61,235 nt of DNA, taken from contig JAHAZB010000017.1 of the NCBI GenBank assembly GCA_018384175.1, positions 1-61,235 on the forward strand, given 5' to 3'. This DNA comes from Eubacteriales bacterium. GTDB lineage: Bacteria; Bacillota; Clostridia; UBA1381. Made by a program: the position numbers and the translations under genes. Of this stretch, positions 5,672 to 38,805 are shown piece by piece (the first letter of the stretch is position 1; each line of letters starts with the position of its first letter). The notes under the pieces are model-generated. The model was not told the DNA's origin and searched no databases. It saw nothing but the letters and a program-made list of their open reading frames with translations.

Positions 5672-5672
5672 A

Positions 5673-7439: not shown

Positions 7440-8305
7440 GCCGCAATGTCGTATGAATCAAGCAGGTTATATGTTTTACCTGAATTCTGACACTGCTTCA
7501 CATTTACATTCGTGATTTTGGATCCTTGTTTCAGCCTTTGGTCGCAGCCGTTCATAACAGCACGGTATCTGTTATTCCCACAGGACAATATGATTGAGCT
7601 GACAGCACCCCGTTCATTGTTCTGAACATTGATTTGCTGAATCTCATATATCGGTGTATTACCCTGACTCTTAGGCTGCTGTTGCGGTTGGTTCTGCTGC
7701 TGTTTTGGTTGCTGCTGTTTTGGCTTTTGATATCCTGCACTTTGACCGCCGGAATTTTTTGGGGCTTCAATCGCATCGTTACCAAACAGTCTTATGACCG
7801 TATCGTAATATACATTCTGAAGCTTTTGCTTCTCATGCTTTGCGATTACAGGCTTTCCGTACTCATCCTCAAGGTCAACCCATACAGCATCAAAGCTATA
7901 CATATATCTGCCTATATTCCATTTTACTGCAGCACGCTTAAAGGCATCGGAAAGTCCGCCCTTAACCGCTTCAAAGTCTGTGTTCTCAGCACCGTCGGTT
8001 TTGCCTATCCATTCCTTTTTCTCATTGTCATAGATATAGATAGTACAAAGCTGGGAATTGACCAGCTTTGTTGTTTCCTTACCTTGCTGCTTTACATTGT
8101 CCGTATATCTGTGCCACAGAGAATACTCATCCTTCCAGTTATTCTGTCCTACAACGCTGTCGAGCCTGTCGGAAATTGCCCTGGCATCAAGATACGGTAC
8201 TGCTAAGCCTCTCATCTTATCCTTTATTGTACGCTGCAGCTTCCAACTCACATCGCTTGCAGAAAAAGGCTTCCCGAATTCCTCAAAATATTTGTTTTCA
8301 CTCAT
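7436..8305 (-). CDS. Rad52/Rad22-family single-strand annealing protein
   Basis: N-terminal core (VPYLDARAISDRLDSVVGQNNWKDEY...GGLSDAFKRAAVKWNIGRYMY) plus Gln/Pro-rich linker. Confidence 0.85.
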   Translation of the reverse strand: MSENKYFEEFGKPFSASDVSWKLQRTIKDKMRGLAVPYLDARAISDRLDSVVGQNNWKDEYSLWHRYTDNVKQQGKETTKLVNSQLCTIYIYDNEKKEWIGKTDGAENTDFEAVKGGLSDAFKRAAVKWNIGRYMYSFDAVWVDLEDEYGKPVIAKHEKQKLQNVYYDTVIRLFGNDAIEAPKNSGGQSAGYQKPKQQQPKQQQNQPQQQPKSQGNTPIYEIQQINVQNNERGAVSSIILSCGNNRYRAVMNGCDQRLKQGSKITNVNVKQCQNSGKTYNLLDSYDIAA

Positions 8306-8308
8306 ATA

Positions 8309-8974
8309 TTAACCTCCGTTTAAACATATAAAGTCCTTTAATGTTTTATCGCTTGGAATCAGTACATCGGTATAGTAAAAGTCAGAGTCCTTATCCTGCA
8401 GAAATTCAAGCATATTCCGATATTCCATACTCAGCTTGGTCTGCTCCGGCAAATAATAGTCGTTATTATCCGGCATAGAGAACAGATAACACGGAATTCC
8501 CGAGAGCTGTCTTAATTGCTTTATTTCCGGCAATGCGTTGTCTCCGGTACACATACGAAATCCGTTTACATTAGAAAACGGATACTCATACAGTTTTGTA
8601 TCATCTCGCAATCTACCCTTATCTGCAACGGTAACATATACATTTGTGATTTTGCCCTGTGCATCAACAGTAAAGCCATAAATTAGCCTCGGAACAGGGA
8701 AATTTTCATAAGTAGTCTTTTCGTAGGTCAGGTCAATTCTGTCCCGACCAAGTTCAACAACCACAAATCTTACTCCGTCCCTTTCACTGAATGAGATGCA
8801 GCTATCCGGCAATATACCGCTATTTATACCCTTTACCTTCACATTTTTAGCAACAATCTGACATAAAGCATCGGGTGTTATTACCTTGTGCCTGATTCTG
8901 TTTCCGGCACGCACGTCAATAACAATGTTCCAATCCTTGTCTATATACAGATTCAAGCCGTGTTTTTTATCCAA
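8309..8974 (-). CDS. hypothetical protein
   Basis: 221-aa ORF in array. Confidence 0.65.
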   Translation of the reverse strand: MDKKHGLNLYIDKDWNIVIDVRAGNRIRHKVITPDALCQIVAKNVKVKGINSGILPDSCISFSERDGVRFVVVELGRDRIDLTYEKTTYENFPVPRLIYGFTVDAQGKITNVYVTVADKGRLRDDTKLYEYPFSNVNGFRMCTGDNALPEIKQLRQLSGIPCYLFSMPDNNDYYLPEQTKLSMEYRNMLEFLQDKDSDFYYTDVLIPSDKTLKDFICLNGG

Positions 8975-9582
8975 TCATACCGCCTCCAATATTCATCATC
9001 CTTGTCATAATATTTCTCCCTCAGTTCGTTAAGCTTCATTGAGTACATATCAAAAAGAGTAGCCGCACCACAGGTGAGCTCAAACAAGCTGCCGCAGGAG
9101 TTTATATCAATGTATATGCTGATTGAGCTTGCGTACTTGTGGTTTGTCTTTGTCCTGAGATAGAACGACGCACCTCCGTAGTATGCCGCATCTGTATATA
9201 GGATATATTCCCTTGCCATATTATGCATTTCTCTTTTGTATCCGTTATACTCCTTAAAGCTGATTCTTTTTTCCTGATACAGTCTACCAAGAGTCCTGTA
9301 GTATTCCGTCATATCTCTGCTCGACATAAACCAGATATCATAAGCCGGCTCACAATAATCGTTTATCTGACCGTTTTCGTCTGGATAATATATCGTCTTA
9401 CACTTCACATGCTCAGCAGCATCATACATCTTGCCATAGCCATCCTCTTCAAAGCTCTCGTAGTCATGATCGCAGTCCGAGAATATTTTTATTGCCGTAT
9501 CTCCGCCGTCATCATAGTGAAGCTTTAATATAGTGAGATAGCTCAGGAATTCCTCAAGCCATGCATTATACAGTAACTTCAT
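8953..9582 (-). CDS. hypothetical protein, paralog of 9908..10501
   Basis: Shared layout with 9908..10501: hydrophobic N-term, GG-[DR]-[TE]-A-[IV]-K, [SD]MxEYYR.L..L...+IS, CG..A.F..Y...L..L...Y. Confidence 0.7.
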   Translation of the reverse strand: MKLLYNAWLEEFLSYLTILKLHYDDGGDTAIKIFSDCDHDYESFEEDGYGKMYDAAEHVKCKTIYYPDENGQINDYCEPAYDIWFMSSRDMTEYYRTLGRLYQEKRISFKEYNGYKREMHNMAREYILYTDAAYYGGASFYLRTKTNHKYASSISIYIDINSCGSLFELTCGAATLFDMYSMKLNELREKYYDKDDEYWRRYDWIKNTA

Positions 9583-9593
9583 ATACTACCTCT

Positions 9594-9908
9594 TTAATGA
9601 AAGCTGTTTTTAGGAACAAACATTGCAGCCGCTTCCTCTACTGCGCTAAACAGCAAGCCTGCCGCCCTTATTCTCTCGGAAAGGTGACTGTTATAGAAGT
9701 CCTTGTATTCTTCCAGATCCTCATATGTGAACTCAGAAAAATCAATATCCTCTACATGAAAGCCCTTACCGTCAAACAGTGAGCCTGTTATTGCTTCATG
9801 AAGATACAAAAAACCTTCACTTCGCTCTGGCTGTTCTTTGCTTCTCCTGACACTTCTGATATTCCTGACATCATCAAGAAAACTATCTTTTTTCAGTTCA
9901 AGCTCCAT
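9594..9908 (-). CDS. hypothetical protein, paralog of 10501..10812
   Basis: Shared GF.YLH..IT..L..G..F...D.DFS.FT..DL.EY...Y..HL motif. Confidence 0.7.
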   Translation of the reverse strand: MELELKKDSFLDDVRNIRSVRRSKEQPERSEGFLYLHEAITGSLFDGKGFHVEDIDFSEFTYEDLEEYKDFYNSHLSERIRAAGLLFSAVEEAAAMFVPKNSFH

Positions 9909-10501
9909 TACTTAACCTCCGTTTCATCTTTTACCGTGAATTCTTCCTCTAAAAATTTCAATCTCTCTTTGTACCTTTCAAAGACTGCAACAATACCGCA
10001 TACTGCATCAAAAGCTCCGAAGCTTCCGTCGTGATAGTTGTATATCTCGATATGACAATATCCGTCCGGCATAGTCCCGTCGTCAAGATGACAATGAAAA
10101 CCGCCGTCGTTGTACTGCTTATTTACAAGCGCGTGCAGAATATAGTCGGTCATTTCGCTATCAAAAAACCTATACTCATCATCCGTTATAAGCTTTCTTT
10201 GACTAAGGTCTTGAAGCAATCGGTAGTATTCACACATATCTTCGCTTTCGAATATCCATTTCTCACCACAGATATCACCTATCTCGTTAGAATCCTCAAA
10301 TTCCTCACGCAAATATTCATGTTCCGTGCATTCGGGCAGATTTTCAAGCTTATCGAGGCAATTTATCTCATATTCCTCTGTATCAGCCCCAAAATTCCTG
10401 AAACACTTTACCGCTTCTCTTCCGCCTTGCTTATAAACAGCTTTGAGCTTTGAAATATACCAGAACAGTGATGTGATCTCATACTTCAATAGTGGAATCA
10501 T
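9908..10501 (-). CDS. hypothetical protein, paralog of 8953..9582
   Basis: See 8953..9582. Confidence 0.7.
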   Translation of the reverse strand: MIPLLKYEITSLFWYISKLKAVYKQGGREAVKCFRNFGADTEEYEINCLDKLENLPECTEHEYLREEFEDSNEIGDICGEKWIFESEDMCEYYRLLQDLSQRKLITDDEYRFFDSEMTDYILHALVNKQYNDGGFHCHLDDGTMPDGYCHIEIYNYHDGSFGAFDAVCGIVAVFERYKERLKFLEEEFTVKDETEVK

Positions 10502-10812
10502 CAGGCAACACCTCTGTACTGCTTCCTCATAGGGAAACTCACTGTATCATAGCTTATCTGGCTAAACAGTACGGCACCTTCCTCAGCCATCGGTTCAAGA
10601 TGTCGTTCATAGTATCTCATATATTCGCTAAGATCGTCTTCTGTAAATCTTGAAAAGTCAAGATCACCGATTTTGAACTCACATCCTTCTGCCAATCTTT
10701 TTGTTATGGTATTATGAAGATACCGAAAGCCTTTGCTTCTGTCCTTAGCATAAATCCCGCCAACTTTTTTCAGCCTTAAGAATTCATTAAGAAAACTCTT
10801 TCTTTTTGCCAC
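10501..10812 (-). CDS. hypothetical protein, paralog of 9594..9908
   Basis: See 9594..9908. Confidence 0.7.
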   Translation of the reverse strand: MAKRKSFLNEFLRLKKVGGIYAKDRSKGFRYLHNTITKRLAEGCEFKIGDLDFSRFTEDDLSEYMRYYERHLEPMAEEGAVLFSQISYDTVSFPMRKQYRGVA

Positions 10813-10824
10813 AATATCCCTCCT

Positions 10825-12189
10825 TTATGCCAGTCTTTTTACTCCGTCTGGAGTCAGCACATTAAATATCATCTTATTCACTCTTGTTTCTGTAAGCGTA
10901 CCCAAGTCTTTATTCTCACGGCATTTAAGCTCCTTAATCACACGTCCCTTTATGACATGCGGCTCATCGCAGTCAACATAACCATTGATAAGGCCGCTAC
11001 CGCCGATCAAGCCTATTTGACCGAGATTTAACGGCATAAGCGGACGGTGTACCATCTGCTCAAGTTTGCTTTTCTCAAAGAGCATTTCGATTGACCTCGA
11101 GCGTGCAAGCTGTCTTTTAAGCTCGCCTAAGTTAAACTCGGCACCTCTGAATAAATCTACATCTTTGCGTATATCAGGCAATGGATAGCTTTCTTGTTTC
11201 AATTTACTGATTAGCGGAATACACTCCTGATGAGTTGCATACTGAGAAAGAACTTCTGCCTCGTCACTACCATCATCTCTTTCCTTCTTGATGCCTAACA
11301 CTGCAATCTGACTAAATTTCGAGAATTCATCATCTAAAAAGCGATAGACTGATATATCTCTAAAATTATCACACAGTATCCTGCAAATATCGAAAGTCAA
11401 GCGGTAATACGGAATGACATATATAAGTACCCCATCAGGCATAAGATGATGCAGGCTTTCTACCAAAAAACGTTTCTCACTCCTTGTTTTTATTCCATCC
11501 TTTTCTATCTTATTTAAGTACGGAGGATTCAAAAAAATACAATGGAATGAATCCTGTCCTATTCTTGAATAGAAATAACTGCCATAACCCACATGGTTAA
11601 TCCTATTATCAGCCTCTGTTCGTCTTGCTTTATCAATCTCTATACCGAAACTGTCTGCATTTACTCCGCTTGCCAATGTTTCTAAAGCCAGTCCTTCTCC
11701 ACAGCATGGGTCAAGAATGTTTACCTGATTTTCTGGGAATACAAGCGATGACTTTATCATCTTGATATGCTCTGTGTCTGTAGGATAGTATCCCATTCTG
11801 ATCTCGTTCATAAGATGACCGACAACTCTTGCATTCACCTTTTCATTTTTCGGGATATTACTGCATAGCATCTCTACTGCACTAATTAACTTTGCATAGT
11901 CCGGTGTTATCAGATTAAACTGCTTTACCGAAGCATACAGTCTGTTGGCAAAATCTGCGCTGTCAGCCATTTCACATTCCGAAAACAAAAGGCTCAGGTT
12001 CATAACTGTATCAAGCAGCTTTTTCTTTTCTGCTTCAAGCTCTGAATAGGTGTCTTTTGCTCTTTGTTTCTGTCCTTTTTGCATGTAGATATCAATAGCT
12101 TTTCGTTTTATGGGCATTGCTTCAGCGATACCTGCAAGTGTCCTTTCAAGCTCCTCAAACATATCAAGAGCATAAAAATGTTCCTCCAT
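10825..12189 (-). CDS. N6-adenine methyltransferase-like protein (DUF6094-like)
   Basis: SAM-binding region NILDPCCGEGLALETLA and catalytic NPPY (IFLNPPYLNK). Confidence 0.8.
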   Translation of the reverse strand: MEEHFYALDMFEELERTLAGIAEAMPIKRKAIDIYMQKGQKQRAKDTYSELEAEKKKLLDTVMNLSLLFSECEMADSADFANRLYASVKQFNLITPDYAKLISAVEMLCSNIPKNEKVNARVVGHLMNEIRMGYYPTDTEHIKMIKSSLVFPENQVNILDPCCGEGLALETLASGVNADSFGIEIDKARRTEADNRINHVGYGSYFYSRIGQDSFHCIFLNPPYLNKIEKDGIKTRSEKRFLVESLHHLMPDGVLIYVIPYYRLTFDICRILCDNFRDISVYRFLDDEFSKFSQIAVLGIKKERDDGSDEAEVLSQYATHQECIPLISKLKQESYPLPDIRKDVDLFRGAEFNLGELKRQLARSRSIEMLFEKSKLEQMVHRPLMPLNLGQIGLIGGSGLINGYVDCDEPHVIKGRVIKELKCRENKDLGTLTETRVNKMIFNVLTPDGVKRLA

Positions 12190-12323
12190 CAGGCAACCCT
12201 CCCGACATCGTTATGAAAGGCTGTGCTTTCGCTCCGGCTGGATTTAATCAGTGTCCTTCTGCCGAACACATCCACACTTTCAAGCTTTTCGGTCAGTGTT
12301 ACCGTGGTCTTTTCAGATGTCAT
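12189..12323 (-). CDS. small hypothetical protein (44 aa)
   Basis: Restarted at MTSEKTTVTLTEK, where AGAGGT precedes ATG; the longer listed ORF overlaps the ThiF end. Confidence 0.45.
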   Translation of the reverse strand: MTSEKTTVTLTEKLESVDVFGRRTLIKSSRSESTAFHNDVGRVA

Positions 12324-12366
12324 TACTACCTCTTTTCGCTGTGTTAAAACGAAATCGTCAAGCTTT

Positions 12367-13101
12367 CTATTTCTCATACTGTGCAATACCTTTCATCAAG
12401 AGTTTTCTTGCAGAAAATGCAATCTTAGTAGTTTCAAGCTCTCCTTTTGCAAGCAGATAGTAAAGCATTGTACTGATTGCCGTTGCTGCAAAGATATTCG
12501 CCGCAATACTCTGCGGTGCCGACACGCTCCGCTCCGCACAAGAAAGCTCGGACGGAAATTTCTCTGTATCGGTCAGAATATCCGGAAATATACTTGCAAC
12601 TGGCTCTGATACAACCTTACCATTTTCCTTGATACCGCACACAACCTGTCCTGTGTATTCGCCGTTACCTGAGTCAATGTATATAACGTCATCCAGTTTA
12701 TTGAATACGTTATGACACATCACTCTCGAACGGTTATTATCCACAGCACCGATTATGATATATGCAGGCTTTTGCGACCTTGCTTCATTGGTTTTAGGAA
12801 TCAGCAAATCACATAGCATATCTTCATCCTCGATATATTCGGGAATATATTCCGTTTCAATACCAAAGGTTTCTGAATATCTTTCTGCCATCGCCTCTGC
12901 CTTGTTGGTACCAATATCAAACTCAGAAAAGTTCTGCCGTATAAGGTTCTTCTTCTCTACAATATCACCGTCTGCAATTACAACCCTGTATTTCCTCTTT
13001 GTTGCATAAGCAATACGGTACAGATGCGGAATAACGTACCCGCCCGTACCGCCTGCTCCGATAATAAGGATGGAAACAGGTCTTGAAAGTTGAAGCTTCA
13101 T
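12367..13101 (-). CDS. ThiF/E1-like adenylyltransferase, PRTRC-type
   Basis: ILIIGAGGTGGYVIPHLYRIA nucleotide-binding loop, VIADGDIVEKKNLIRQNF, GAVDNNRSR: canonical ThiF/E1 motifs. Confidence 0.88.
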   Translation of the reverse strand: MKLQLSRPVSILIIGAGGTGGYVIPHLYRIAYATKRKYRVVIADGDIVEKKNLIRQNFSEFDIGTNKAEAMAERYSETFGIETEYIPEYIEDEDMLCDLLIPKTNEARSQKPAYIIIGAVDNNRSRVMCHNVFNKLDDVIYIDSGNGEYTGQVVCGIKENGKVVSEPVASIFPDILTDTEKFPSELSCAERSVSAPQSIAANIFAATAISTMLYYLLAKGELETTKIAFSARKLLMKGIAQYEK

Positions 13102-14492
13102 TTCATCTCCTCCTGTTCCTTAATCTCCTTTATCGTAACTGCATCCTTCCACTTTTCGGGGAATGTTCCGTCAATGCCGTCAAAAATATCTTCAAGCGGA
13201 ATTTCCACAAACTTACCACCCACTGAAATTCTGACAAGAATATCCGGGAACACTTTATCAAAGCTGCCAACTACTGCATAAAGTCCGGTTGCCTTTTCGT
13301 CCTTATCATCATCACCGGAGAAATATGCCGGCATGGTGTTATGAGAATGGATTTCCATTACAAGAATAAACCTCTCATCTTCAAGCGGCATTTCGGTTGT
13401 GTCAACACTTGCTTTTGATACCTCCTGTTTCGGTATATGAACAAAGTATCTTTCTTCCGTCTTTGACCAGAAGATGTATGCAAGAGCTTCCGTAATCCTA
13501 TCCTTCGTGATATATGACTTGAAGAATGCCAATATCTCCGACAAGACAGAAAACGGGATTTTAGGAAGGGCGGGGATAAACCCAGCCCTTACCTTTTGGA
13601 ATGCAGTCGCTTTTCTTGTCTGAACGATAAAAGTACCGACGCCGTTTGAGCGTATCTCATAGAGTCTGCCGTTTTCGGATGGGACATATGAGATTACTTT
13701 ATCGCTCATTCTTGCAGCGTCAACCGTTTCATACAAGCCCTTGTATGCTGACATTACACCCTTCTTTTTTGCTTTAACACTCGGTGTAATTTCGCACTTT
13801 AAATCGCCCTTTGCTTTTTTGATTGCCTCAGGAAATTCCTTAGATTCCTCAATCTTCTTTTTAAAAGATGCAATCGTAGTGTCCTTTGGAGTAGTTACAT
13901 TTTTTGAAATGCTTCCATATGTAACCTTCCATGATACATTCTCTCCGTCGTCAAGCTCCGGGAAATCCTCTGCCTTTTCCAAACGCAAGGCTTCAAAGGT
14001 GATTGATGTATCAACAATTTCGTCCTTCGCCTTTCCGTATACGAAAATCGGGAGTTTTTTAATCAACCCACTTTTGGCACTTTCTGTTTCTTTCTTCTCC
14101 GCCGCTGCAAGTTCCGACGCATATATATCTTCGTCACTTTCCAGTTTGTCTGCATCTGCATTTGTGACTGCTGCGGCGTTTTCAGTTGCGGCAGGTTGTT
14201 CGACTGCTTCTTCATTCTTTTCCTCCACTTTCTCTGTACTTGGTGCTGTCTGTTCTGCAATTACCTGTGCCTCTGCTGATTGAGTAGCTACAGGCTCAGC
14301 TTGCTGTGCTACAGATGTTTCAGCAGCCTCGACAGGTGTTTTTTCTTCCTCTTTCGGTGTCTGCTCTGGCTCAGGCGTGCTTTCGCCGAACAGTTTGTCA
14401 AGGTCAGTATCCTCAAACATACCGCCAAAATCGTTGCTTCCTAAATCCATTGCGTCATCACCAAACATAATGTTCATTTTATCCTCTAACAT
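13098..14492 (-). CDS. JAMM/JAB-domain protein, PRTRC system protein A-like, with Ala/Glu-rich N-terminal region
   Basis: JAMM motif in MEIHSHNTMPAYFSGDDDKDE (HxH-x7-S-x2-D) followed by GLYAVVGSFDKVFPDILVRISVGGKFVEIP; overlaps the ThiF start. Confidence 0.85.
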   Translation of the reverse strand: MLEDKMNIMFGDDAMDLGSNDFGGMFEDTDLDKLFGESTPEPEQTPKEEEKTPVEAAETSVAQQAEPVATQSAEAQVIAEQTAPSTEKVEEKNEEAVEQPAATENAAAVTNADADKLESDEDIYASELAAAEKKETESAKSGLIKKLPIFVYGKAKDEIVDTSITFEALRLEKAEDFPELDDGENVSWKVTYGSISKNVTTPKDTTIASFKKKIEESKEFPEAIKKAKGDLKCEITPSVKAKKKGVMSAYKGLYETVDAARMSDKVISYVPSENGRLYEIRSNGVGTFIVQTRKATAFQKVRAGFIPALPKIPFSVLSEILAFFKSYITKDRITEALAYIFWSKTEERYFVHIPKQEVSKASVDTTEMPLEDERFILVMEIHSHNTMPAYFSGDDDKDEKATGLYAVVGSFDKVFPDILVRISVGGKFVEIPLEDIFDGIDGTFPEKWKDAVTIKEIKEQEEMK

Positions 14493-14546: not shown

Positions 14547-15008
14547 TCAAGCTTCCACACACCTCCTGAACGCAGACTGCCTTAACGCATTTCCGCAAGA
14601 GTATCTATGTAAAAGCCTGTACCCTCCATTGGGACGGCTGTGTTTCCTTTTAACACATACGTCAGGGGCATTCCTACCATCTGCAATCGTATCACCAAAT
14701 ATAATCTTTTCAGGATACGACATCTGATAGTCAAGACTCAGTACAACTACATTCCCTCTTTCATTCCTCTGATCTTTAAAGTGCTGACCTATTGCCGTTG
14801 ACATAGCCTGTATTGCAAATAATTCAAACGAATCGATTTCATCTTTTCGCTCATCGTATTCGCACACAGCTTCTAAAAACGGGAATACAGCAATGTCATA
14901 ATATTCATCCATTGCCAGATGTCTCGATTTTAGAAAGTCAAGCAAAATGTTATGTTGCTCCTCTGCCAACCTCCTCTGCCTCTCTGTTAACCTTTTTGTT
15001 TCATTCAT
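14547..15008 (-). CDS. sigma-70 region-2-like protein
   Basis: AEEQHNILLDFLKSRHLAMDEYYDIAVFPFLEAVCEYDERKDEIDSFELFAIQAMSTAIGQHFKDQRNERG resembles sigma region 2; start reset to MNETKR (15008) behind AAGGAGG. Confidence 0.6.
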   Translation of the reverse strand: MNETKRLTERQRRLAEEQHNILLDFLKSRHLAMDEYYDIAVFPFLEAVCEYDERKDEIDSFELFAIQAMSTAIGQHFKDQRNERGNVVVLSLDYQMSYPEKIIFGDTIADGRNAPDVCVKRKHSRPNGGYRLLHRYSCGNALRQSAFRRCVEA

Positions 15009-15032: not shown

Positions 15033-15076
15033 AAAAAAACACACGATGAAAAGTATCTACTTAACCTCGTGTGTTT
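15033..15076 (-). terminator. intrinsic-terminator-like hairpin between leader and the sigma-like gene (attenuator candidate)
   Basis: Minus strand AAACACACGA...TCGTGTGTTT, perfect 10-bp stem (15037-15046/15067-15076) followed by TTTTTTT. Confidence 0.75.
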
Positions 15077-15096
15077 AATTAACCTCAAATATTTAG

Positions 15097-15280
15097 TTTA
15101 CCTCGTAAAAATGCAAAAACAGGTTCTAAAGGACATACCTATCCCGTAAGATAGAGTTTCCTAAAGAACCCGTTTTAACCGTAACCGTTTTAGCTGCACC
15201 ATTTTTACAAGCTCATTTTATCACGCTATTTCCTACCTTGCAATATGTGGAGCTGTTTTTTTATGAAGTTTTATTTTTTT
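15097..15280 (-). promoter_or_regulatory. Duplicated promoter+leader element, copy 1
   Basis: About 184 nt, ~95% identical by eye to 34090..34273; minus-strand promoter TTGCAA(15243-15238)-17-TAAAAT(15220-15215), then a structured leader. Confidence 0.85.
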
Positions 15281-25253: not shown

Positions 25254-26825
25254 CTATATCCTCTCTTCCATCAAATCACCTATAATATTATCCTCTAAAA
25301 GCTCACTTGTTCTGTAAAGTCTGTCAGCAAATTTTGCAAGGGAAAATTCAAAGCATTCACCCTTATCAAGCAGGATGCCTGTAAGTCTTGCACCTGTACG
25401 GGATTTATATTCCTCAAATACCTTAAAAAAGTCATCAGGCAGATCACACTCACCGTCCGTTATAAAGACAATGTCAGGTTTATCAACCTTTCCTGTTGCC
25501 GTTAGTGCAAACACTTCTCTGAGTGGTCTTTCAAAATCCGTGCCACCGCCTAAAAGTGTTTCTGCACAGTCCAGAACCTTCCTAGTGTCAGGAGTTACAT
25601 CCTTCGGGAAATAGTCAACCTTAGTATCAAAGGAAAAATGCACAAGTGCAAAGTTTGTATGATTGATTCTGCAAATCTCATACAACACCATTGCAATCGC
25701 CATACCATAGGCACTATTTTCTCCAAAGGTAGAGCCGGACTCATCAAGGCATACAACAATATCGCCCTTTCCTTTATATTCCGGCTCACGCTTTCGGTAC
25801 TGTTTCAGCTGCTTATTCTGATACTTTTTAAGAAACAGGGGCATCAGCTCCGGTGTTGCTGTCATAGCAATTTCAGAGGTTAATGCTCTTGATATACTGT
25901 TTCCGTACTCAATATCATACTTTTCGCCTCTGCCATAGGTATAGCCTGCAAGACGTTTGGAGTTGAGCATTTCCTTATACCGTCCGAGAAACTGTGCGAT
26001 ATACCGAAGCTTATCGGATTTTGCAGTACGCTTTAGGATTTCCATATTAACAGGATTCTTCTGCATACTGCTGTCTCCGTCTCCCCATGCCATTACGGCA
26101 TGTGCGACACCTTCTGCACGATCGAGTGCTGCATCTGCTGATTTCGCAATGATTTCTGCAATATCCTTCGACCTTTGGTTCATACCTTTTTTCACAATCT
26201 GTGAAAACTGCTCGGTCTGTTCTTTCTTTGCAATAACCTTATTCGCAGTACTGACAGCCTTTTTCTCCAAGGCTTCCTTTTGTCCTTCCGGTGCAGCCTC
26301 GTACTGCTCCATCAGTTCCTGAAGCTGCTTATACAATTCCTCCTTATCCTGCTCCATGACATCAAGAGCATTTACCTGTCCTTTTCCACCTGTTGCCTTA
26401 TTCATAAGGCTTGTAAGGTTTTCAAGAAGCTTTTGGGTAAATTCCTCCGTTGCACCGATAGCGGGTAATTCTTTTCCCGCGCATACCTGCTTTATAGCAG
26501 AATAATGGTCATCATCCATAAGCTCGGACAATATCCCTTTATTAAAAGTCTTTGACAAGTCAGAAAGATTTTCTTCATCCTCAAATCTCGGACGCAGACC
26601 GTAGATTGACTGAAACACATCATTTACAAGACTTTTAAAGCTTGCAAGCTTCTTTTCACCTTGTTCTCCGTATATCTGCAGTTCTTCTGCATCCCCGGAT
26701 AAGTCATCATATATCGCCTGCTCTATCTTTGTTGATTTTAAGACTCTGTGCGTTTTTACTTTCCTGTCAGCCTTTATCATATCCTGAAAATCACCGGACA
26801 GGATTTCCTCAATACTTTTAATCAT
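25254..26825 (-). CDS. VWA-domain (ViaA/CoxE-like) protein
   Basis: MIDAS-like VCLDESGSTFG, GGTDFERPLREV, VFITDGECDL. Confidence 0.85.
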   Translation of the reverse strand: MIKSIEEILSGDFQDMIKADRKVKTHRVLKSTKIEQAIYDDLSGDAEELQIYGEQGEKKLASFKSLVNDVFQSIYGLRPRFEDEENLSDLSKTFNKGILSELMDDDHYSAIKQVCAGKELPAIGATEEFTQKLLENLTSLMNKATGGKGQVNALDVMEQDKEELYKQLQELMEQYEAAPEGQKEALEKKAVSTANKVIAKKEQTEQFSQIVKKGMNQRSKDIAEIIAKSADAALDRAEGVAHAVMAWGDGDSSMQKNPVNMEILKRTAKSDKLRYIAQFLGRYKEMLNSKRLAGYTYGRGEKYDIEYGNSISRALTSEIAMTATPELMPLFLKKYQNKQLKQYRKREPEYKGKGDIVVCLDESGSTFGENSAYGMAIAMVLYEICRINHTNFALVHFSFDTKVDYFPKDVTPDTRKVLDCAETLLGGGTDFERPLREVFALTATGKVDKPDIVFITDGECDLPDDFFKVFEEYKSRTGARLTGILLDKGECFEFSLAKFADRLYRTSELLEDNIIGDLMEERI

Positions 26826-26851
26826 ATTCTACACACCTCTTTTTTCAGAAA

Positions 26852-26870
26852 GAGGAGGCAAAGCCTCCTC
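26852..26870 (-). other. strong intergenic hairpin between ssb and VWA gene
   Basis: GAGGAGGC-AAA-GCCTCCTC, perfect 8-bp stem. Confidence 0.7.
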
Positions 26871-26879
26871 AACTGTCTG

Positions 26880-27329
26880 TCAATTCATATTGAATGGTAA
26901 ATCGTCGTTAAAATCCATTGGCATCGGAGTAAAGCCCATATCCTCCTTTGACTGCATCTGATTATCTGCTGTCTTAGGAGCGTCGTCCTTTTTCTCATCA
27001 CCGTCAGACTTCTTACCACCTGCAAAGCCGGTTTCTGTTCCGTTTATTCTATATCCAAAAACCTTTCCGTTCTCGGTATCATATGAATAGTTTTCAAGGG
27101 AACCGACTACATACACCTGACAGCCTTGCGTATAGTGATTGAATGCAAATTTTGCATTAGAGCGCCACAGGCTTACCGGAATGAAATCCACCTCCGGCTT
27201 ATCCTTTCCTTTCGGTGTATAGTTTCTTGTAACTGCCAGTCTGAAGGTTGTATTTTCCGCATTATCTACAACCTTTGACTCCGGATCGTTTGCCAATCTT
27301 CCTATCAATATAACTTTGTTTAGTGACAT
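26880..27329 (-). CDS. ssb: single-stranded DNA-binding protein
   Basis: MSLNKVILIGRLANDPESKVV...FRLAVTRNYTPKGKDKPEVDFIPVSLW, acidic tail ending DDLPFNMN. Confidence 0.93.
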   Translation of the reverse strand: MSLNKVILIGRLANDPESKVVDNAENTTFRLAVTRNYTPKGKDKPEVDFIPVSLWRSNAKFAFNHYTQGCQVYVVGSLENYSYDTENGKVFGYRINGTETGFAGGKKSDGDEKKDDAPKTADNQMQSKEDMGFTPMPMDFNDDLPFNMN

Positions 27330-27343
27330 AATTTTATCCTCCT

Positions 27344-28729
27344 TTAAATACTCATAATCTTCTGTTCAGAAAGCGGAATGTATGTCATTCCAACCTTCTT
27401 AGCCGCTTCTGACAGCATTGCTTCAAGCTCATTTTCGCTGTTTACAACAGTTTCCAAATCAGAATCACTCAAATCTGTTTCTCTTAAAGCTGTCAACGCG
27501 ATGTAGATTTTCAAAAGCTCACGAGAGAATACCACATAAGCCTTTATCTTTTCATCATCTGACACACCCTCGTCTGTCATCAGTCCGAGTGTTTCCTCCA
27601 TTAGGCTCTTGCTTTCATTTGCCATATCAAGCAGCTTATCAACCTCTGTGCCAATCGGATTTTCGCAGATGTCGGAGAGAATCTTCTCCACAGTCTCACG
27701 CTCGTTCGGGGTATCCCAGAAATAGTTTTTAAGAACCATCAGGTCCTTTGGTGCTACTTCCGTATTTCCCGAAAGGTATGCTTTTGCCTTCACAATCGGT
27801 GTGAACCCGAAATACTTTCTGTCCGATACACGAACACCGTTTCTTCTCAGTTCACACAGCACATTATCCATCAGCTCATTGATACTATCCGGAACAATGA
27901 CCTTTTCCATCTGCTTCTGCATCTTTTCAAGCTCATGTAGCGATATGGTAGCATTGATTTTACCATTCGCACCGCTTTGCTTATTCTTCAGCACACGCAT
28001 ACGGTTTTCAGGCTCCTGCACATACTCTGTTAATACCTTCAGTTCAAAACGGTCATAAAGCGGTTTTAATATCGCCTGTGCCGGATCCTTGAAATCAGGT
28101 ATCTCATTGGATGCAGAGAAAATGGAAATAACCGGAATAGGTACAGTTTGTCCCTCGTTGGTATATACCCTTTCATTAAGTGCTGTCAGCAATGAGTTTA
28201 ATATTCCATCCGCTGACTTAAATATCTCATCTAAAAAGACAATATGACTGTCCGGAATCTTGCCCTTTGTAATGATTCTCGGAGCATTGTCAGATGTACT
28301 GCACACAATTCTCTTTATGTAGGACAGCTTCGCTGCTTTATCTGCAGCTTCTTTGAGTACCTTTTCATCACGTTCTGCTTTGTATTCCTCATACATAGCC
28401 CTGATTGTGTTGACATATTCTGAATATACCTCATCCTTCATAAGCTCTTCCTTCGGCAAATTATCGGGGATAATACTTGACAGGTCAAGTCTTCCGAAGA
28501 TCTGCTCCTCATCGGTCTGCTTTGACATAAGGTATTCAAACTGCTTTGCACCTGTGATTCGTTTTCTAAACTCGTTGATTGCATAGCTTTTTGCCTGCCC
28601 GGTTTCTCCTAATATAAACATATTCTTTCGGGCTAACAGGCATATTGCAATACACTCAACAAGCTCCTCACGTTCCGCAACCTCTGCGTTTACCTCATCA
28701 ATGATGTCATTCATCTTTGTATATAGCAT
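27344..28729 (-). CDS. MoxR/RavA-family AAA+ ATPase
   Basis: Walker A FILGETGQAKS; HIVFLDEIFKSADGILNSLLTALNERVY; FSASNEIPD. Confidence 0.9.
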   Translation of the reverse strand: MLYTKMNDIIDEVNAEVAEREELVECIAICLLARKNMFILGETGQAKSYAINEFRKRITGAKQFEYLMSKQTDEEQIFGRLDLSSIIPDNLPKEELMKDEVYSEYVNTIRAMYEEYKAERDEKVLKEAADKAAKLSYIKRIVCSTSDNAPRIITKGKIPDSHIVFLDEIFKSADGILNSLLTALNERVYTNEGQTVPIPVISIFSASNEIPDFKDPAQAILKPLYDRFELKVLTEYVQEPENRMRVLKNKQSGANGKINATISLHELEKMQKQMEKVIVPDSINELMDNVLCELRRNGVRVSDRKYFGFTPIVKAKAYLSGNTEVAPKDLMVLKNYFWDTPNERETVEKILSDICENPIGTEVDKLLDMANESKSLMEETLGLMTDEGVSDDEKIKAYVVFSRELLKIYIALTALRETDLSDSDLETVVNSENELEAMLSEAAKKVGMTYIPLSEQKIMSI

Positions 28730-28741
28730 CTTTCAACCTCC

Positions 28742-29296
28742 TCACACAAACGGAAAACCTTTGTATTCAGCCACGATATCTGTAGCTTTTCTGATATAAG
28801 GTTTGTTGACTTTCGTTTCGGATAAATGCTTCAGCCAGCCACAGCACAGTCTTGAAAAGCTCTGCTGATTTGTTTTATGTGCGTTGTTAATCATATACCG
28901 GATAAATTCATCATTGCTTTCACTGCTGAATAGATAATGCTCAAAAAGCAGTGCTGCTGAAAAGTCGTTACGGTAGTCAAAGTCCAGACCGCACATACTT
29001 TCACAGCGTCTTGTCAGTCTATCTGTATCAAAATCCGATATAATCCCGGACACTCTACGTGCAAAGATAACAGATTTTTCATTTCTGCCATCATATCTAC
29101 TGCAATCCGAAAGTGCATTAAGCCATTCAAAGCACAGCATTGTGAAATCGTATCTGATGCTCTCCTGCATTTTCATCATACACTCATAAAACTTCTTGCC
29201 GGGCGTAACAAGCGAATTGACATACAACCCTGCAATCGCCTCTGCAACCTCTTTTCCGTTTGATACATCATTGATATGTATCATTGTGTTTTTCAT
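28742..29296 (-). CDS. hypothetical protein linked to MoxR
   Basis: 184-aa ORF between Zn-ribbon and MoxR genes. Confidence 0.6.
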   Translation of the reverse strand: MKNTMIHINDVSNGKEVAEAIAGLYVNSLVTPGKKFYECMMKMQESIRYDFTMLCFEWLNALSDCSRYDGRNEKSVIFARRVSGIISDFDTDRLTRRCESMCGLDFDYRNDFSAALLFEHYLFSSESNDEFIRYMINNAHKTNQQSFSRLCCGWLKHLSETKVNKPYIRKATDIVAEYKGFPFV

Positions 29297-29310
29297 TGTT
29301 TTTTCCTCCT

Positions 29311-29679
29311 TTACGCAGCCTCATTACATAGGTCTATTACCTTCTGACAATCCTCCATCTCGAAATATCCGATATGCGTAGACTTAGGCGGCAGTCCCAT
29401 TTTCTGGGACAACCATTTATACCCTTCTGTCCTTGTCATATTCTTCGCTTTCCAGAAGCTGTCGAAAACATTGTGTGTTTCCTTACGCTTTGCACGCAAA
29501 ATACTGTTTGCAAGTGTACCCAAAGGCTTCTCGCTCTTTTTATCTACGCCCACAAAAGCATTACAGTTCGTACAAAGATAAATGTTACCGTAATCCTTGC
29601 CGTAAATTCTGCTACTATTTGTTAAAATCACTTTTCCACCGCAATATCGACATATAGTAGGCTTTTTCAAGTCATGCAC
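29311..29679 (-). CDS. zinc-ribbon protein (DUF3268-like)
   Basis: CRYCGGKVILTNSS...YLCTNCNAFVGVDK. Confidence 0.7.
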   Translation of the reverse strand: MHDLKKPTICRYCGGKVILTNSSRIYGKDYGNIYLCTNCNAFVGVDKKSEKPLGTLANSILRAKRKETHNVFDSFWKAKNMTRTEGYKWLSQKMGLPPKSTHIGYFEMEDCQKVIDLCNEAA

Positions 29680-29682
29680 CTC

Positions 29683-30864
29683 CTACGCTGCCTTCTCTTC
29701 CGGTTCGGCTTTTTTCTTGACTTTCTTCGGTTTTGGCTTCTTTTCAGCAACATAATCCTCTCTTTGCTTTTTAACAGCTTCGTCACTCACTCTTGTCATC
29801 ATAAAACGGTTGTATTTGTCCCTTATAAGGATATAGCCACGCCTGTCAATCTGAATCAGTAATGTGCCTTCAATTGTATCAAATACATTTTTAAGATGCG
29901 TTGCAGGATAGAAAAAACTCATACTTTCTTCACCAGATATCTTAACAGCATCTACTGTATTGGTGCATTTACCAACATTATTCTGTGTTGTAAGAGTGAT
30001 TTTCTCATCAGCAAATTCCAGGCCTATATATGACATCTTACTTCCCATCGCCGCAACAGTGTATGTACTCTCAAGCTGAGGTTTGAAATCAGAATATTCA
30101 ACCTTCATTGAATACACAGGTTTTAGTCCGTTCAGGATATTATCCACATTAACATACTCATACGCCATTTTCCTCGCTGAAAATATAAGTCCCTCACGCA
30201 TAAACACCACATGAGTATCGGTTGTACCAACTTTTATCTCCTCATTACCTGCCGCTGTTGCAAGATACATACAGGCTGGTTTTGGAAGTGTAAACTCAAC
30301 ACTGTTTTCACAGTTCATCATATGACTAACCATAGATATATTCTGCAAGTTACAGCTGATGACGCGAAAACCATTTGAACGGATATCAAAATGAATACCC
30401 TTCATTCCATCCGGTACTCCTGAGGATACAACTGCTGCTCTTGTTTTCGTATACATCGAAGCAACATTTGAGACAGTTGCCATCGTACCAGGAAATGGTA
30501 TCTCTGTTTTGGGATATGCACACGGATTCATAACACTTCTTGTATATGTACATTCACCTGATTTAACTTCTGCTGCTCCTTCTTTTATAAGAGCAAACTC
30601 AACCTCTGTGCCACCTAATAGATGCAGCATTTCGTACATAAAACTTGCATCCATCAGCATTTTGCCACCGCTTTCAATCGGCACCTTTATTCTCCTCTGT
30701 ACTGAAACTTCAAGATTTGTCGCCGTAATATAAAGGTATCCGTCATCCTCGTTTGCTTCAAGCAGAAAACCTGTCAGCTCTTTCATAGGACTTCCCTTCG
30801 GCACTACCTTATACATTGACTTAAGAAGTTCCAACATCAAATCTCTGTTAATCTTAAATCTCAC
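29683..30864 (-). CDS. DNA polymerase III beta-clamp-like protein
   Basis: DnaN-like three-domain layout; ITATNLEVSVQRRIKVPIESGGKMLMDASFMYEMLHLL; Lys/Glu-rich extra C-term tail. Confidence 0.8.
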   Translation of the reverse strand: MRFKINRDLMLELLKSMYKVVPKGSPMKELTGFLLEANEDDGYLYITATNLEVSVQRRIKVPIESGGKMLMDASFMYEMLHLLGGTEVEFALIKEGAAEVKSGECTYTRSVMNPCAYPKTEIPFPGTMATVSNVASMYTKTRAAVVSSGVPDGMKGIHFDIRSNGFRVISCNLQNISMVSHMMNCENSVEFTLPKPACMYLATAAGNEEIKVGTTDTHVVFMREGLIFSARKMAYEYVNVDNILNGLKPVYSMKVEYSDFKPQLESTYTVAAMGSKMSYIGLEFADEKITLTTQNNVGKCTNTVDAVKISGEESMSFFYPATHLKNVFDTIEGTLLIQIDRRGYILIRDKYNRFMMTRVSDEAVKKQREDYVAEKKPKPKKVKKKAEPEEKAA

Positions 30865-30887: not shown

Positions 30888-33800
30888 TTACGCAACATCA
30901 AACAGCGTCATCTGATCTCCCTCAAAAGAGAACTGAATATTCTGCTTAACTGCTCCGCTATCCTTAATTCCTCTCGCTTGCCTTGCAAGTAATCTCGCCT
31001 TTTCTATCTTATCAGCGATAGAAACAGTAACCTTTACCTGTACTTCATCTGATATGATGTATTCGGACATATCCTCCTCTGGCTCATCGTTATCTTTTAT
31101 GATAGCCATTCGTTTGAACATCTCCGCCACATCCTCAACCTCGTTCTTGATACCCATTGTAAGCTCTTTTGCAAGCTGTGATGTCATGTCTGCATCATCG
31201 CCAAGTGCTGCCAGACCTTCATCTGTGAAATTACCCTCTACTAATGTTGCCGCCGCAAGTTTCGATGCCATAAGACGTATCGCTCTTGCCTGCATTACAT
31301 CCTTGTAGTAAAGGATATATACCTCAATTCTTGGTGCCGTCTGGTTAATCCTCCACGAACGCCTTGAGCTTTGGCGAAATGTGAAGAGGTTGTACCCGAT
31401 GTTGTAGTAGATAAGAGTAGTGAATGAATTGAGATCCAATCCGGTCTCAACCAAACTAGGGTTTGTTATTAGAACATCAAGACCATCTTTTATCTTCTTT
31501 TCCACCCATTGCTCTCTCTTCTCAGGTGCAACTGTCTGCGGAAGGACTGCTACACGATAGCCATTATCCTCCAGCAGTTTCTTCAGCTTATCCTGTGTGT
31601 CAATCTTTACCCAACTCGTATAGATTAATACCTTTTCGCCATTTTCCACTTTACGCTTCACTATATCAAGTGTTGCCGTATCCTTTTCATGAAGTTCGTC
31701 AAAATTTGACAGACTTTTTGGTTCTACTACAGCAATATCACTGTCAGGAAACATAATTGGTTCTGCATCATATGGTTGGTCAGGATATGTAGTCAAAAGA
31801 CTCAAAAACTTTGACATAAGCCTCCTGCTTTCCAACCCCTTTGTCTGCATCACACTCTTATATGTCTTCTCAATTCTTTTATACTCTTCAGCAATATCGT
31901 CTCTTAAATTAAGTTCAATAGGTATCTCCTCATATTCAGGAAGATGTTTGCCCATATCGTTAAGTGATAGAAATACCGCACAATCCATTAAGAACCTCGA
32001 ATATACAAGCGGTGATACTCCCGGTCGTTGTCGAGATTGTGTAAGTTTCTTTCTGCTCTTGGAATTCTCGTTGTATTCACTCTCTTCAAGCTCGTATGTT
32101 GTCTCAGTAACACCATATTCATCATTAAATCGCTGCGGTGTTTCATAGTCCTTATTGTCAGCTTTCATGAAGTGCGGTACAATTCTGTAAAGGAGATAGA
32201 AAAGTCCGCTTGAATAGCCATTGATTAGTGTTGCTGTCATACCTATAACCTTCTTGCTGCAGCCAATTAGAGTTTCCATCGCATCGCCTTGTCCACTATC
32301 ACCCTTAAACAGATGTAATTCATCCGCTATAAGACCGTCAACATTTTTTATATGTTCAGCGATAAAACTACTCATCGAATATCGTCTGTAAGCACCCTTC
32401 GCAATAAAAATCTGGTCAGGATTATCTACAATCTCATTTATTTTAGCAATAACTTTTTCACTATTAGTTTTCTTCAAGTGTCTTGCTGCAAAATCACGAT
32501 ATACGAAACCATAACCTCCGATTTTTACCCATTTGTTATGCCTTAAATCCATATCATAAGGATTCAAAGCAGTCCAAAGTGTTTTCTTACACTGAGGGTT
32601 AGTACAGAAATGGTTTTGCGTATTTCTCTTTTTAAAGAAATACTGATTAGCATTAATAGTATAATAGGCATCATCTCTTTTAACCTGCATAGTGACAACC
32701 TCACCGCACCACGGGCATATAAAACCTTTTCTGACTCTTGAATACACAACAGCCGGACGATGCATATATCCGTCTCTTGCACGTTCTTTTGATAGAACAA
32801 TATATTTACTCTCTGCTCCATCCTGAAAGTCTTTATATGCTCTTTTGATGTCTGCTATGGAATACACTACTTCTGCATTAGTATTCGGCAAAGACTCTTC
32901 TATCTCACGAACCCATTTCTTGGTTACATGGGACGGAGAAAGAATCACATTAAACGTCTTTCTGCCGTTTTGATGTGCTGCAAGTGCAACGGAGCCAATT
33001 TTTGTCTTTCCACTGCCGCACTCAGCAACTACCAATCCTACCTTTGCCATGTCAAGCCTGCGTTTTAAGCTTTCCGCAACAGCAAGCTGTGCAGGGTACA
33101 GACTATATCCGACATTTTTCTTGATATGTCCGTTAATTATTTTTAATCTGTCGCATATGCTCTCTGTTTCAGGATCAAATAGCGGATTAAATGAATCTCT
33201 GATTCTGTTGGCAATTTTGATACCGTATTTGTTCAGGTATTCAGACACCGATTTGATATTCAACAGTTCCTTTGACTGCACAGAATTAGGAATCGATATT
33301 ACTCCCATTTTTAGCCCATCATTTACAACTGCTTCCATATCTTGTTCATCGTCACTGAGTTCGAGCTGGTATGCGTCAAAGCTTTCACTTAATGACAGCA
33401 CCTTCAATTTTGTGAGCATTCCACGTTTTTGACATTCCGATAATATATAGTCCTTAAAATCAGGTATCAGCGGAATTGATGTTTTCCTGTCAAACTCAGC
33501 AAAAAGTTCGTCTGTATCACCTTCTTTACAGAAGATATACATTTTGTGTTTCTCGTCTTTTTTGTTATCTCTTTGTCCCTCCTCGGTTTCTGCACCAATT
33601 TCATCGTCAAGTGCCATTACCATGCCTTCAGCATACATACCGTCATGAGTAATGCTGCGCCTGAAATCTTTCTGCATAACCTTTAAAATTATCGGATGAT
33701 TATCAACATTTGCTTGAACAGTCACACCTTTCCGCACAACATCAGACATTGCTTTTACATGTTCTGCATAACCGCCAAATCGCATTGCAACAAGTTCTCT

Positions 33801-33920
33801 TGTATTTCCGTCTCGCTTATTAAATACAAATGTATCAGCGTAACAAGAAATAGCAATTTTTGCATCATAGTCGTTATATGTGACCGTTGAAAGCTCTGTC
33901 ATTTCTACAATAGAAACCAC
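30888..33920 (-). CDS. SNF2/DEAD-like helicase with embedded zinc-binding region
   Basis: Walker A VAECGSGKTKIG; IADELHLFKGDSGQGDAMETLIGCSKKVIGMTATLING; helicase C ITNPSLVETGLDL..YYNIGYNLFTFRQSSRRSWRINQ; CPWCG...CTNPQCKK. Confidence 0.9.
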   Translation of the reverse strand: MVSIVEMTELSTVTYNDYDAKIAISCYADTFVFNKRDGNTRELVAMRFGGYAEHVKAMSDVVRKGVTVQANVDNHPIILKVMQKDFRRSITHDGMYAEGMVMALDDEIGAETEEGQRDNKKDEKHKMYIFCKEGDTDELFAEFDRKTSIPLIPDFKDYILSECQKRGMLTKLKVLSLSESFDAYQLELSDDEQDMEAVVNDGLKMGVISIPNSVQSKELLNIKSVSEYLNKYGIKIANRIRDSFNPLFDPETESICDRLKIINGHIKKNVGYSLYPAQLAVAESLKRRLDMAKVGLVVAECGSGKTKIGSVALAAHQNGRKTFNVILSPSHVTKKWVREIEESLPNTNAEVVYSIADIKRAYKDFQDGAESKYIVLSKERARDGYMHRPAVVYSRVRKGFICPWCGEVVTMQVKRDDAYYTINANQYFFKKRNTQNHFCTNPQCKKTLWTALNPYDMDLRHNKWVKIGGYGFVYRDFAARHLKKTNSEKVIAKINEIVDNPDQIFIAKGAYRRYSMSSFIAEHIKNVDGLIADELHLFKGDSGQGDAMETLIGCSKKVIGMTATLINGYSSGLFYLLYRIVPHFMKADNKDYETPQRFNDEYGVTETTYELEESEYNENSKSRKKLTQSRQRPGVSPLVYSRFLMDCAVFLSLNDMGKHLPEYEEIPIELNLRDDIAEEYKRIEKTYKSVMQTKGLESRRLMSKFLSLLTTYPDQPYDAEPIMFPDSDIAVVEPKSLSNFDELHEKDTATLDIVKRKVENGEKVLIYTSWVKIDTQDKLKKLLEDNGYRVAVLPQTVAPEKREQWVEKKIKDGLDVLITNPSLVETGLDLNSFTTLIYYNIGYNLFTFRQSSRRSWRINQTAPRIEVYILYYKDVMQARAIRLMASKLAAATLVEGNFTDEGLAALGDDADMTSQLAKELTMGIKNEVEDVAEMFKRMAIIKDNDEPEEDMSEYIISDEVQVKVTVSIADKIEKARLLARQARGIKDSGAVKQNIQFSFEGDQMTLFDVA

Positions 33921-34021: not shown

Positions 34022-34067
34022 AAAACACACTATGAAAGTCTTATTTGACTTTTCCAAAGTGTGTTTT
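34022..34067 (-). terminator. intrinsic-terminator-like hairpin between leader copy 2 and helicase operon
   Basis: Minus strand AAAACACACT..AAAAGTC..GACTTTC..AGTGTGTTTTTCGTTTT. Confidence 0.72.
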
Positions 34068-34089
34068 ACCTCTTTCAAAACTTATTAAA

Positions 34090-34273
34090 TTTACCTCGTA
34101 AAAATGCAAAAACAGGTTCTAAAGGACGCACCTATCCCTTTGGATAGAGCTTCCTAAAAAACCCGTTTTAACCGTAACCGTTTTAGCTGCACCATTTTTA
34201 CAAGCTCATTTTACCACGCTATTTCCTGCTTTGCAATATGTGGAGCTGTTTTTTTATGAAGTTTTATTTTTTT
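34090..34273 (-). promoter_or_regulatory. Duplicated promoter+leader element, copy 2
   Basis: Promoter TTGCAA(34236-34231)-17-TAAAAT(34213-34208); ~10 differences from copy 1. Confidence 0.85.
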
Positions 34274-37929: not shown

Positions 37930-38805
37930 TTACTTATGCATCTTTCGAAGAATTTTACCGTATACAAGTTTTCTCTCGTAATTATGTTTACGGATAAGTA
38001 CCTCAACATCATCACCTATCTTGTAGTCGCCATCATACTCCATCGTTGCATAGGAACAGAGAATTTCTGTCACACCATCAAACAAACGGCAATATACACC
38101 GCCTCCGTATTTACCAACAATCTTGGCTATTCTCGTGGAACCCACAGGATGTCTTGTTTCTATACCGTCAAACGGATGAGGAATTGTGTCTTTTATAGAA
38201 AGTCTTAATACATTACTTTTTCTGTCAAATTCCTTTATAAGCGCTTTCTTTATTTCTCCGGGACGTAAAACCGCACGAAGGTCTGGTACCGTATTGTGAC
38301 TTACTTCTTTTTGTACAAGAACAACATCATATCCACAATATGTAACTGTACACGCTCCTCTGCCTACCGAGACAACTTCCGCCTGAATAATCTGACCCGG
38401 AGTGATTTTTCGTCTCGCATTTACTCTTTTTATCTGTTCAAGAGCTTTTTTGCGCGATGCTATTGCAACACCCGAAAGTCTGTCTATCTCAGTTATAATA
38501 AAAGAGATTTTGGCACCATTCATTGACAGCAGTGACGGCGGCTCATCAAAATCAAGAAACACCTCAGTTTCTGGAATAATTATTTTCACTCGGTATGGGA
38601 TTACAATCAGGCATAGTATTGTATGATTTGATGCACGCTTTTTCCCTTCCGGTACATAACTTAATTCGTGCTCATCCACACCTACAACTACTCCAGTCAA
38701 AACCGAACCGCCTCTATATGACGCATAAATTGCCTGCCATTCCTGTCGTTCCTCTTCTGACAAGTTCCTGTCAAGTTCCGCTAAATTTAATTCTTTGAAA
38801 TCCAT
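37930..38805 (-). CDS. S1 RNA-binding domain protein
   Basis: Ribosomal-S1-like repeats: PGQIIQAEVVSVGRGACTVTYCGYDVVLVQKEVS; VGSTRIAKIVGKYGGGVYCRLFDGVTEILCSYA. Confidence 0.75.
   Translation of the reverse strand: MDFKELNLAELDRNLSEEERQEWQAIYASYRGGSVLTGVVVGVDEHELSYVPEGKKRASNHTILCLIVIPYRVKIIIPETEVFLDFDEPPSLLSMNGAKISFIITEIDRLSGVAIASRKKALEQIKRVNARRKITPGQIIQAEVVSVGRGACTVTYCGYDVVLVQKEVSHNTVPDLRAVLRPGEIKKALIKEFDRKSNVLRLSIKDTIPHPFDGIETRHPVGSTRIAKIVGKYGGGVYCRLFDGVTEILCSYATMEYDGDYKIGDDVEVLIRKHNYERKLVYGKILRKMHK

Follow-up and report, generated by a model that had tools for sequence, protein, structure and literature searches.

Why do two separate operons of one conjugative element begin with almost the same DNA, and could that DNA place both under a single signal? 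The question arises in a stretch of 61,235 nt from a Eubacteriales bacterium, here called the window, which corresponds to contig C119 in the incomplete, 1.98-Mb genome G000 (88% complete). The window element is conjugative, carries its genes on the minus strand, and encodes a VirD4-like protein (CD1115 family) and a VirB4-like ATPase. A first-pass annotation had described two copies of a leader-terminator element differing at about 10 positions over 184 nt; our count is exactly 10 (34090-34273 vs. 15097-15280). The full minus-strand repeat spans 191 nt (34083-34273 vs. 15090-15280), ungapped and with 94% identity, and BLAST within the genome recovers the second copy with E = 1.1e-79. Promoter and spacing are the same at both copies, as had been noted (TTGCAA-17-TAAAAT at 34236..34208 and 15243..15215), and the terminator-like hairpin ascribed to the copy at 34022-34273 is an intrinsic terminator (34067..34022, dG -16.6). 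Coordinate 34022 is the distal end of that terminator, the transcript running from ~34201 downward. The assignment of DNA-metabolism genes to both operons is likewise borne out: one encodes helicase, clamp, DUF3268, MoxR, SSB, and VWA proteins, the other JAB, ThiF, methyltransferase, E2-like, Rad52, and SMC-like proteins. The features of the window, all on the minus strand (-), are as follows.

34233-34245 (-): CTCCACATATTGC box, overlapping the -35 of copy 1 (from sequence)
34208..34236 (-): sigma-70-like promoter, copy 1, TTGCAA-17-TAAAAT, with TG ahead of the -10 (from sequence)
34098..34201 (-): leader RNA, copy 1; 5' end at 34201 predicted from the -10 spacing
34193-34201 with 34098-34106 (-): P1 closing helix, copy 1 (from swap test)
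34181..34194 (-): direct repeat 1, copy 1, TGGTGCAGCTAAAA (from sequence)
34166..34180 (-): direct repeat 2, copy 1, CGGTTACGGTTAAAA (from sequence)
34113..34165 (-): conserved hairpin, copy 1, opening with a third partial repeat (CGG..) (from covariation count and fold)
Within 34113..34165 (-): apical stem CTATCC/GGATAG and conserved 3' internal-loop motif GUNYGYCC, copy 1
34022..34067 (-): intrinsic terminator, copy 1, AAAACACACT...AGTGTGTTTT, dG -16.6
30888..33920 (-): helicase, first gene of operon 1 (from Pfam and homologues)
25254..30864 (-): remainder of operon 1: beta-clamp-like, DUF3268, 184-aa protein, MoxR ATPase, SSB, VWA (from Pfam and synteny)
15215..15243 (-): promoter, copy 2, TTGCAA-17-TAAAAT
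15105..15208 (-): leader RNA, copy 2; P1 15200-15208 with 15105-15113, hairpin 15120-15172
15037..15076 (-): intrinsic terminator, copy 2, AAAACACACT...AGTGTGTTTT, dG -13.5
14547..15008 (-): small sigma-region-2-like protein, first gene of operon 2 (from sub-threshold Pfam matches, seen in homologues only)
4589..14492 (-): remainder of operon 2: JAB (PRTRC-A-like), ThiF, DUF6094 methyltransferase, E2-like, Rad52, SMC-like, and primase-like, the last assigned from sequence and homologue placement
37930..38805 (-): triple-S1-domain protein, candidate trans factor by association

The order within each copy is promoter, start site, GUAAAAAUGGUGCAGCUAAAACGGUUACGGUUAAAACGGG..., hairpin, CAUUUUUACGAGG, and intrinsic terminator, and the leader-plus-terminator folds beat dinucleotide shuffles at both copies (z -4.5 and -5.6). 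Judged from its sequence, the repeat is a promoter with a predicted structured leader RNA of ~100 nt, neither a chance repeat nor a transposon. A leader peptide was rejected, as the window frame ATG GTG CAG.. (MVQLKRLRLKRVF) is not kept in other copies, which read MVSS* or have no ATG. Between the two operons (17281-23671) lie the gene for a large, secreted-looking protein of 1845 aa and an RHS-repeat neighbour (22802-23671), apparently cargo.

Structure of the leader RNA

A related leader is found upstream of same-order helicase homologues with upstream DNA (helicase identity 57-63%). Its plan is two direct repeats followed by a hairpin with the conserved 3' internal-loop motif. The repeats read UGGU-GC-AGCUAAAA in the window and UGGU-AAGC-AGUUAAGA or UGGU-UGU-AGUUAAAG in other copies; the third repeat, with which the hairpin opens, is similar to repeat 2. 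In a hand-made alignment of eight copies, which leans to this structure (slid controls are only 40-50% paired), 92% of the hairpin pair cells are standard, 17 cells are changed on both sides, and ten pairs show such two-sided changes; none of 500 shuffles matched the hairpin on paired cells or covariation score. The first-pass annotation had not recognised this covarying RNA structure.

A GC-rich relative of the leader (GC-type) consists of GUAUUUCAGGGCGGAGCAUUUUAGGGCGGAGCAUUUUAGGG..., direct repeats, GUNYGCCC, and a terminator. A closing helix is possible between the leader ends of both types, as in GUAUUUCAGG with CCUGGAAUAC (GC-type) and GUAAAAAUG with CAUUUUUAC (window). A copy's own 5' and 3' ends out-pair swapped ends (p < 1/5000 overall; AT-type p 0.0016, GC-type p 0.011). 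Because GC-type covariation alone is not significant on a MAFFT alignment, the closing helix of that type rests on the swap test and the cross-type comparison. The AT-type hairpin is followed by a U-run and could itself be a terminator; the GC-type hairpin has no U-run. In the G154 leaders (L034, ~1350-1550 and 17550-17760), an additional hairpin region of ~100 nt separates the 5' end from the repeats.

The leader RNA family is absent from Rfam 15: neither the window nor ten related loci gave a match at the gathering score to any family, EAR, riboswitches, and T-box included, and a permissive search with the leader returned sub-threshold matches only. It could be among the thousands of candidate RNAs from microbiomes catalogued in 2021 (PMC8040213).

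Terminators and promoters

Shortly past the leader, a terminator-like hairpin with a U-run is present in 46 of 48 copies, vs. 6.7% of control stretches from the same sequences; no separate terminator was found in G001 and G093. Within a genome, identity is 58-100% between paired leaders, 51-89% between their terminators, and 42-74% over the next 60 nt. In G016 the leaders are 100% identical and the terminators 51%, and a Subdoligranulum pair keeps the architecture with leaders only 58% identical. Leader identity within a genome is far above that between elements. Pairing of the leader with the terminator 5' arm showed no excess over swapped arms (p 0.42, 0.997, 0.88), and pairing with the 3' arm was slightly above swaps (AT-type p 0.035; all copies p 0.0025, a figure that mixes two base compositions).

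Promoter regions within a genome are 72-100% identical. Some GC-type copies have a palindrome adjoining the -35 (e.g., upstream of L102, L109, L113, and L117), in about the same register and with varying sequence (GGTGGA/TCCACC, GTTGGA/TCCAAC, CTTGCG/CGCAAG, CTTGAT/ATCAAG, CCTGAA/TTCAGG), the individual p-values being modest; it is absent from the window copies. This is the pattern expected of a dimeric regulator site, and the palindrome is probably an operator that varies in sequence along with its regulator. Given the matched promoters and these palindromes, paired copies may share control in two layers.

Distribution and gene context

The search for further copies that the first-pass annotation had called for shows that the same pair recurs in other elements. 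Leader homologues occur in more than 25 genomes and belong to one element family, carried by Oscillospiraceae, Lachnospiraceae, and other Clostridia. Cultured carriers include Subdoligranulum and Pseudoflavonifractor isolates. In twelve elements the leader occurs twice and the order is constant, with one copy ahead of the helicase/clamp operon and the other ahead of the JAB operon. Eleven of them have a spacing of 13-24 kb; in the twelfth, a circular Subdoligranulum record of 168 kb, described as a plasmid and with one leader before each of helicase and JAB, it is 41 kb. Paired leaders are 16.2 kb apart in G154 and 18.4 kb apart in G239. In the window, G154, G239, and G016, copy one precedes the helicase operon and copy two a sigma-region-2-like gene, followed by JAB where sequence extends that far. 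GC-type elements also carry two leaders on a single contig. The second copy in G064 is cut by the end of the stretch examined.

A class-wide search of 391 genomes with strict filters, using a model built from eight copies (R1), found copies in G000 and G040 and, beyond these, in G154, G239, and G281 only; G016 escaped it. Scanning named genomes yielded 43 helicase loci, most of which, where upstream sequence exists, have an AT-type or GC-type leader; the upstream region of L061 is diverged and ambiguous. Applied to 25 genomes, a further model (R2) found copies in 18. Among the GC-type copies inspected from it, 29 of 30 precede helicase or JAB and the other lies at a contig end. The repeat is thus not placed at random sites, and its fixed operon context rules out a transposable unit. 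Four loci (L046, L049, L064, L070) have the helicase directly ahead of JAB and no upstream leader, and their genomes contain no R2 match anywhere. In these, a short hydrophobic ORF lies upstream in the leader's stead, and JAB, ThiF, and methyltransferase genes come after the helicase. No leader was found by blastn in plasmid or phage collections, and neither the exact leader pattern nor the helicase was found in viral contigs.

The suggestion that copies might always stand before replication operons holds in part: nearly all precede these two, but a third context exists, a tyrosine-recombinase module. The leaders on C51 and C26 of the genome to which the window belongs, and those in G281 and G476, stand before a tyrosine recombinase gene and share the repeat type of their relatives; a weaker R2 match lies near a recombinase in G484 (E 2e-10). 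The leader is therefore not confined to replication genes. On C51 (L012, 1-350), two leaders in tandem, ~300 bp apart, stand before genes for a tyrosine recombinase, an excisionase-like protein, and an integrase. At L085 (~800-1500; L086 and L087 are similar), several hundred GC-rich, apparently non-coding bases with shared pieces and no Rfam match lie between the leader/terminator region and the tyrosine recombinase; this stretch could be another RNA.

Mode of action

We infer what the leader does from its structure and context. On these grounds a single signal co-controlling both operons, as the first-pass annotation proposed, is a well-motivated hypothesis, and the leader pair has the look of a switch, not described before, that turns the mobile DNA of gut bacteria on and off. 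We lean, without great confidence, toward antitermination by the logic of lambda nut, HK022 put, or LoaP, which would co-activate both operons. By default, most transcripts would end at the terminator after the leader. Upon element activation, either the leader alone (put-like) would let RNA polymerase read through the terminator, or a trans factor on the direct repeats (nut/LoaP-like logic), for which the S1-domain protein is the leading candidate, would give readthrough. The helicase/clamp operon and the JAB/Rad52/primase operon would be turned on together, with the matched promoters adding common control at initiation. A defined RNA would then probably decide when large gut conjugative elements turn on their DNA-processing genes, and the question of how such elements stay silent becomes testable by a simple reporter.

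An S1 domain is present (E 1.9e-7) in the 291-aa product of 37930-38805, for which searches by fold and by profile both return ribosomal protein S1; the model of this product has three OB-like units (mean pLDDT 82.5 for the best and 62-66 for the other four, from seven sequences only). In many of the elements whose flank is long enough, the gene sits upstream of the helicase leader, and close homologues within the order occur in exactly the seven helicase-bearing genomes. It is present in 26 of 29 leader genomes vs. none of four leaderless ones (Fisher p 0.0009), although the latter are probably one element lineage and the gene also tracks the close TraG backbone. Because it shares the same element backbone, the association is weak and confounded; by association, the protein is the leading candidate partner of the leader. 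The sigma-like first gene was rejected as trans factor, as GC-type elements begin this operon with JAB and show no such gene. A bolder claim, which we regard as unlikely, would be a widespread clostridial conjugative-element antitermination system, unrelated in sequence to known ones, in which the triple-S1 protein reads lineage-specific repeats in the leader and lets RNA polymerase run past terminators, so that both operons come on.

A classical attenuator, its leader sensing a protein or ligand and toggling between antiterminator pairing and the terminator, is possible but doubtful. Promoter, structured leader, terminator, and gene form the classical layout, U-runs follow the AT-type hairpin, and the likeness of repeat 2 to the third repeat would permit strand exchange within the leader. 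However, identical leaders precede different terminator stems (100% vs. 51% in G016), the leader has no surplus pairing with the terminator 5' arm, and the GC-type leader hairpin is without a U-run. That leader and terminator do not change together, with no 5'-arm excess, is the main reason why we prefer an effect on RNA polymerase. Distinctly less probable is a promoter/operator cassette, in which the block would matter mainly as a DNA regulator site and RNA structure would be secondary. Neither the compensatory hairpin changes nor the matched RNA ends are expected of a DNA site, and the palindrome is missing in the window copies; such a cassette would nonetheless suit the within-genome promoter identity, the many GC-type copies with a -35 palindrome in one register and of varying sequence, and the direct repeats just past +1.

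We give little credence to the terminated ~180-nt transcript being itself the product, a small trans RNA for copy control or immunity: a structured 5' segment and terminator would give a discrete, stable RNA, but every resolved GC-type copy lies in the sense leader of one or other of two fixed operons. Least credible of all is that the pair is alike only through recombination between two direct repeats and has no regulatory role. Structure, position, and terminator are conserved across diverged elements, and the Subdoligranulum pair is 58% identical yet retains its architecture, even if identity inside a genome far exceeds that among elements, as recombination would have it.

If antitermination is the mode of action, the leader pair would give Gram-positive bacteria a counterpart of the paired nut/put sites known from lambdoid phages. 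In lambda, nutL and nutR work with N as paired sites in two replication/recombination operons, each then followed by terminators. The leaders are likewise paired ahead of terminators in two operons with replication and recombination genes, but no boxA/boxB or N-like protein was identified for them. In HK022, putL and putR are related structured RNAs, each close to the start of one of two early operons and ahead of terminators; put is ~70 nt with two stem-loops and acts in cis, and the putL 5' end is base-paired (PMC9378689). The leaders share that placement and the paired 5' end; set against the description of put, they differ in having ~100 nt, direct repeats, and a predicted closing helix with one hairpin.

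LoaP with the dfn/mln leader hairpin combines promoter, small hairpin, intrinsic terminator, and long operon, two operons sharing the hairpin, and requires a NusG paralogue and a UNCG hairpin (PMC12691694). The same order of promoter, RNA hairpin, intrinsic terminator, and operon, with a hairpin common to two operons, is seen here. Membership in this class was rejected: G000 (only 88% complete), G016, G154, and G239 each have one PF02357 match and no NusG paralogue, and the apical loops are AAAG, UUAC, AAGG, and AUAG, with UGCG in G001 only.

The conAn (pLS20) and canT (Tn916) systems provide antitermination with an RNA component at the start of Gram-positive conjugative operons, each serving a conjugation operon with internal terminators; canT is defined as a 452-nt sequence, of which a 341-nt piece is active, and conAn has a dedicated protein (PMC8955417, PMC11658703). 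The leaders resemble them as RNA at the start of Gram-positive conjugative-element operons. They differ in that the window's two operons have no strong internal terminators, so that long-range processivity is not needed there. The G154 operons contain several internal terminators, the strongest lying between inserted genes.

Two phage records ('Bacteriophage sp.', MT836933.1 and MT836594.1) encode a helicase of this element family with ~48% identity; they are possibly misnamed conjugative-element fragments.
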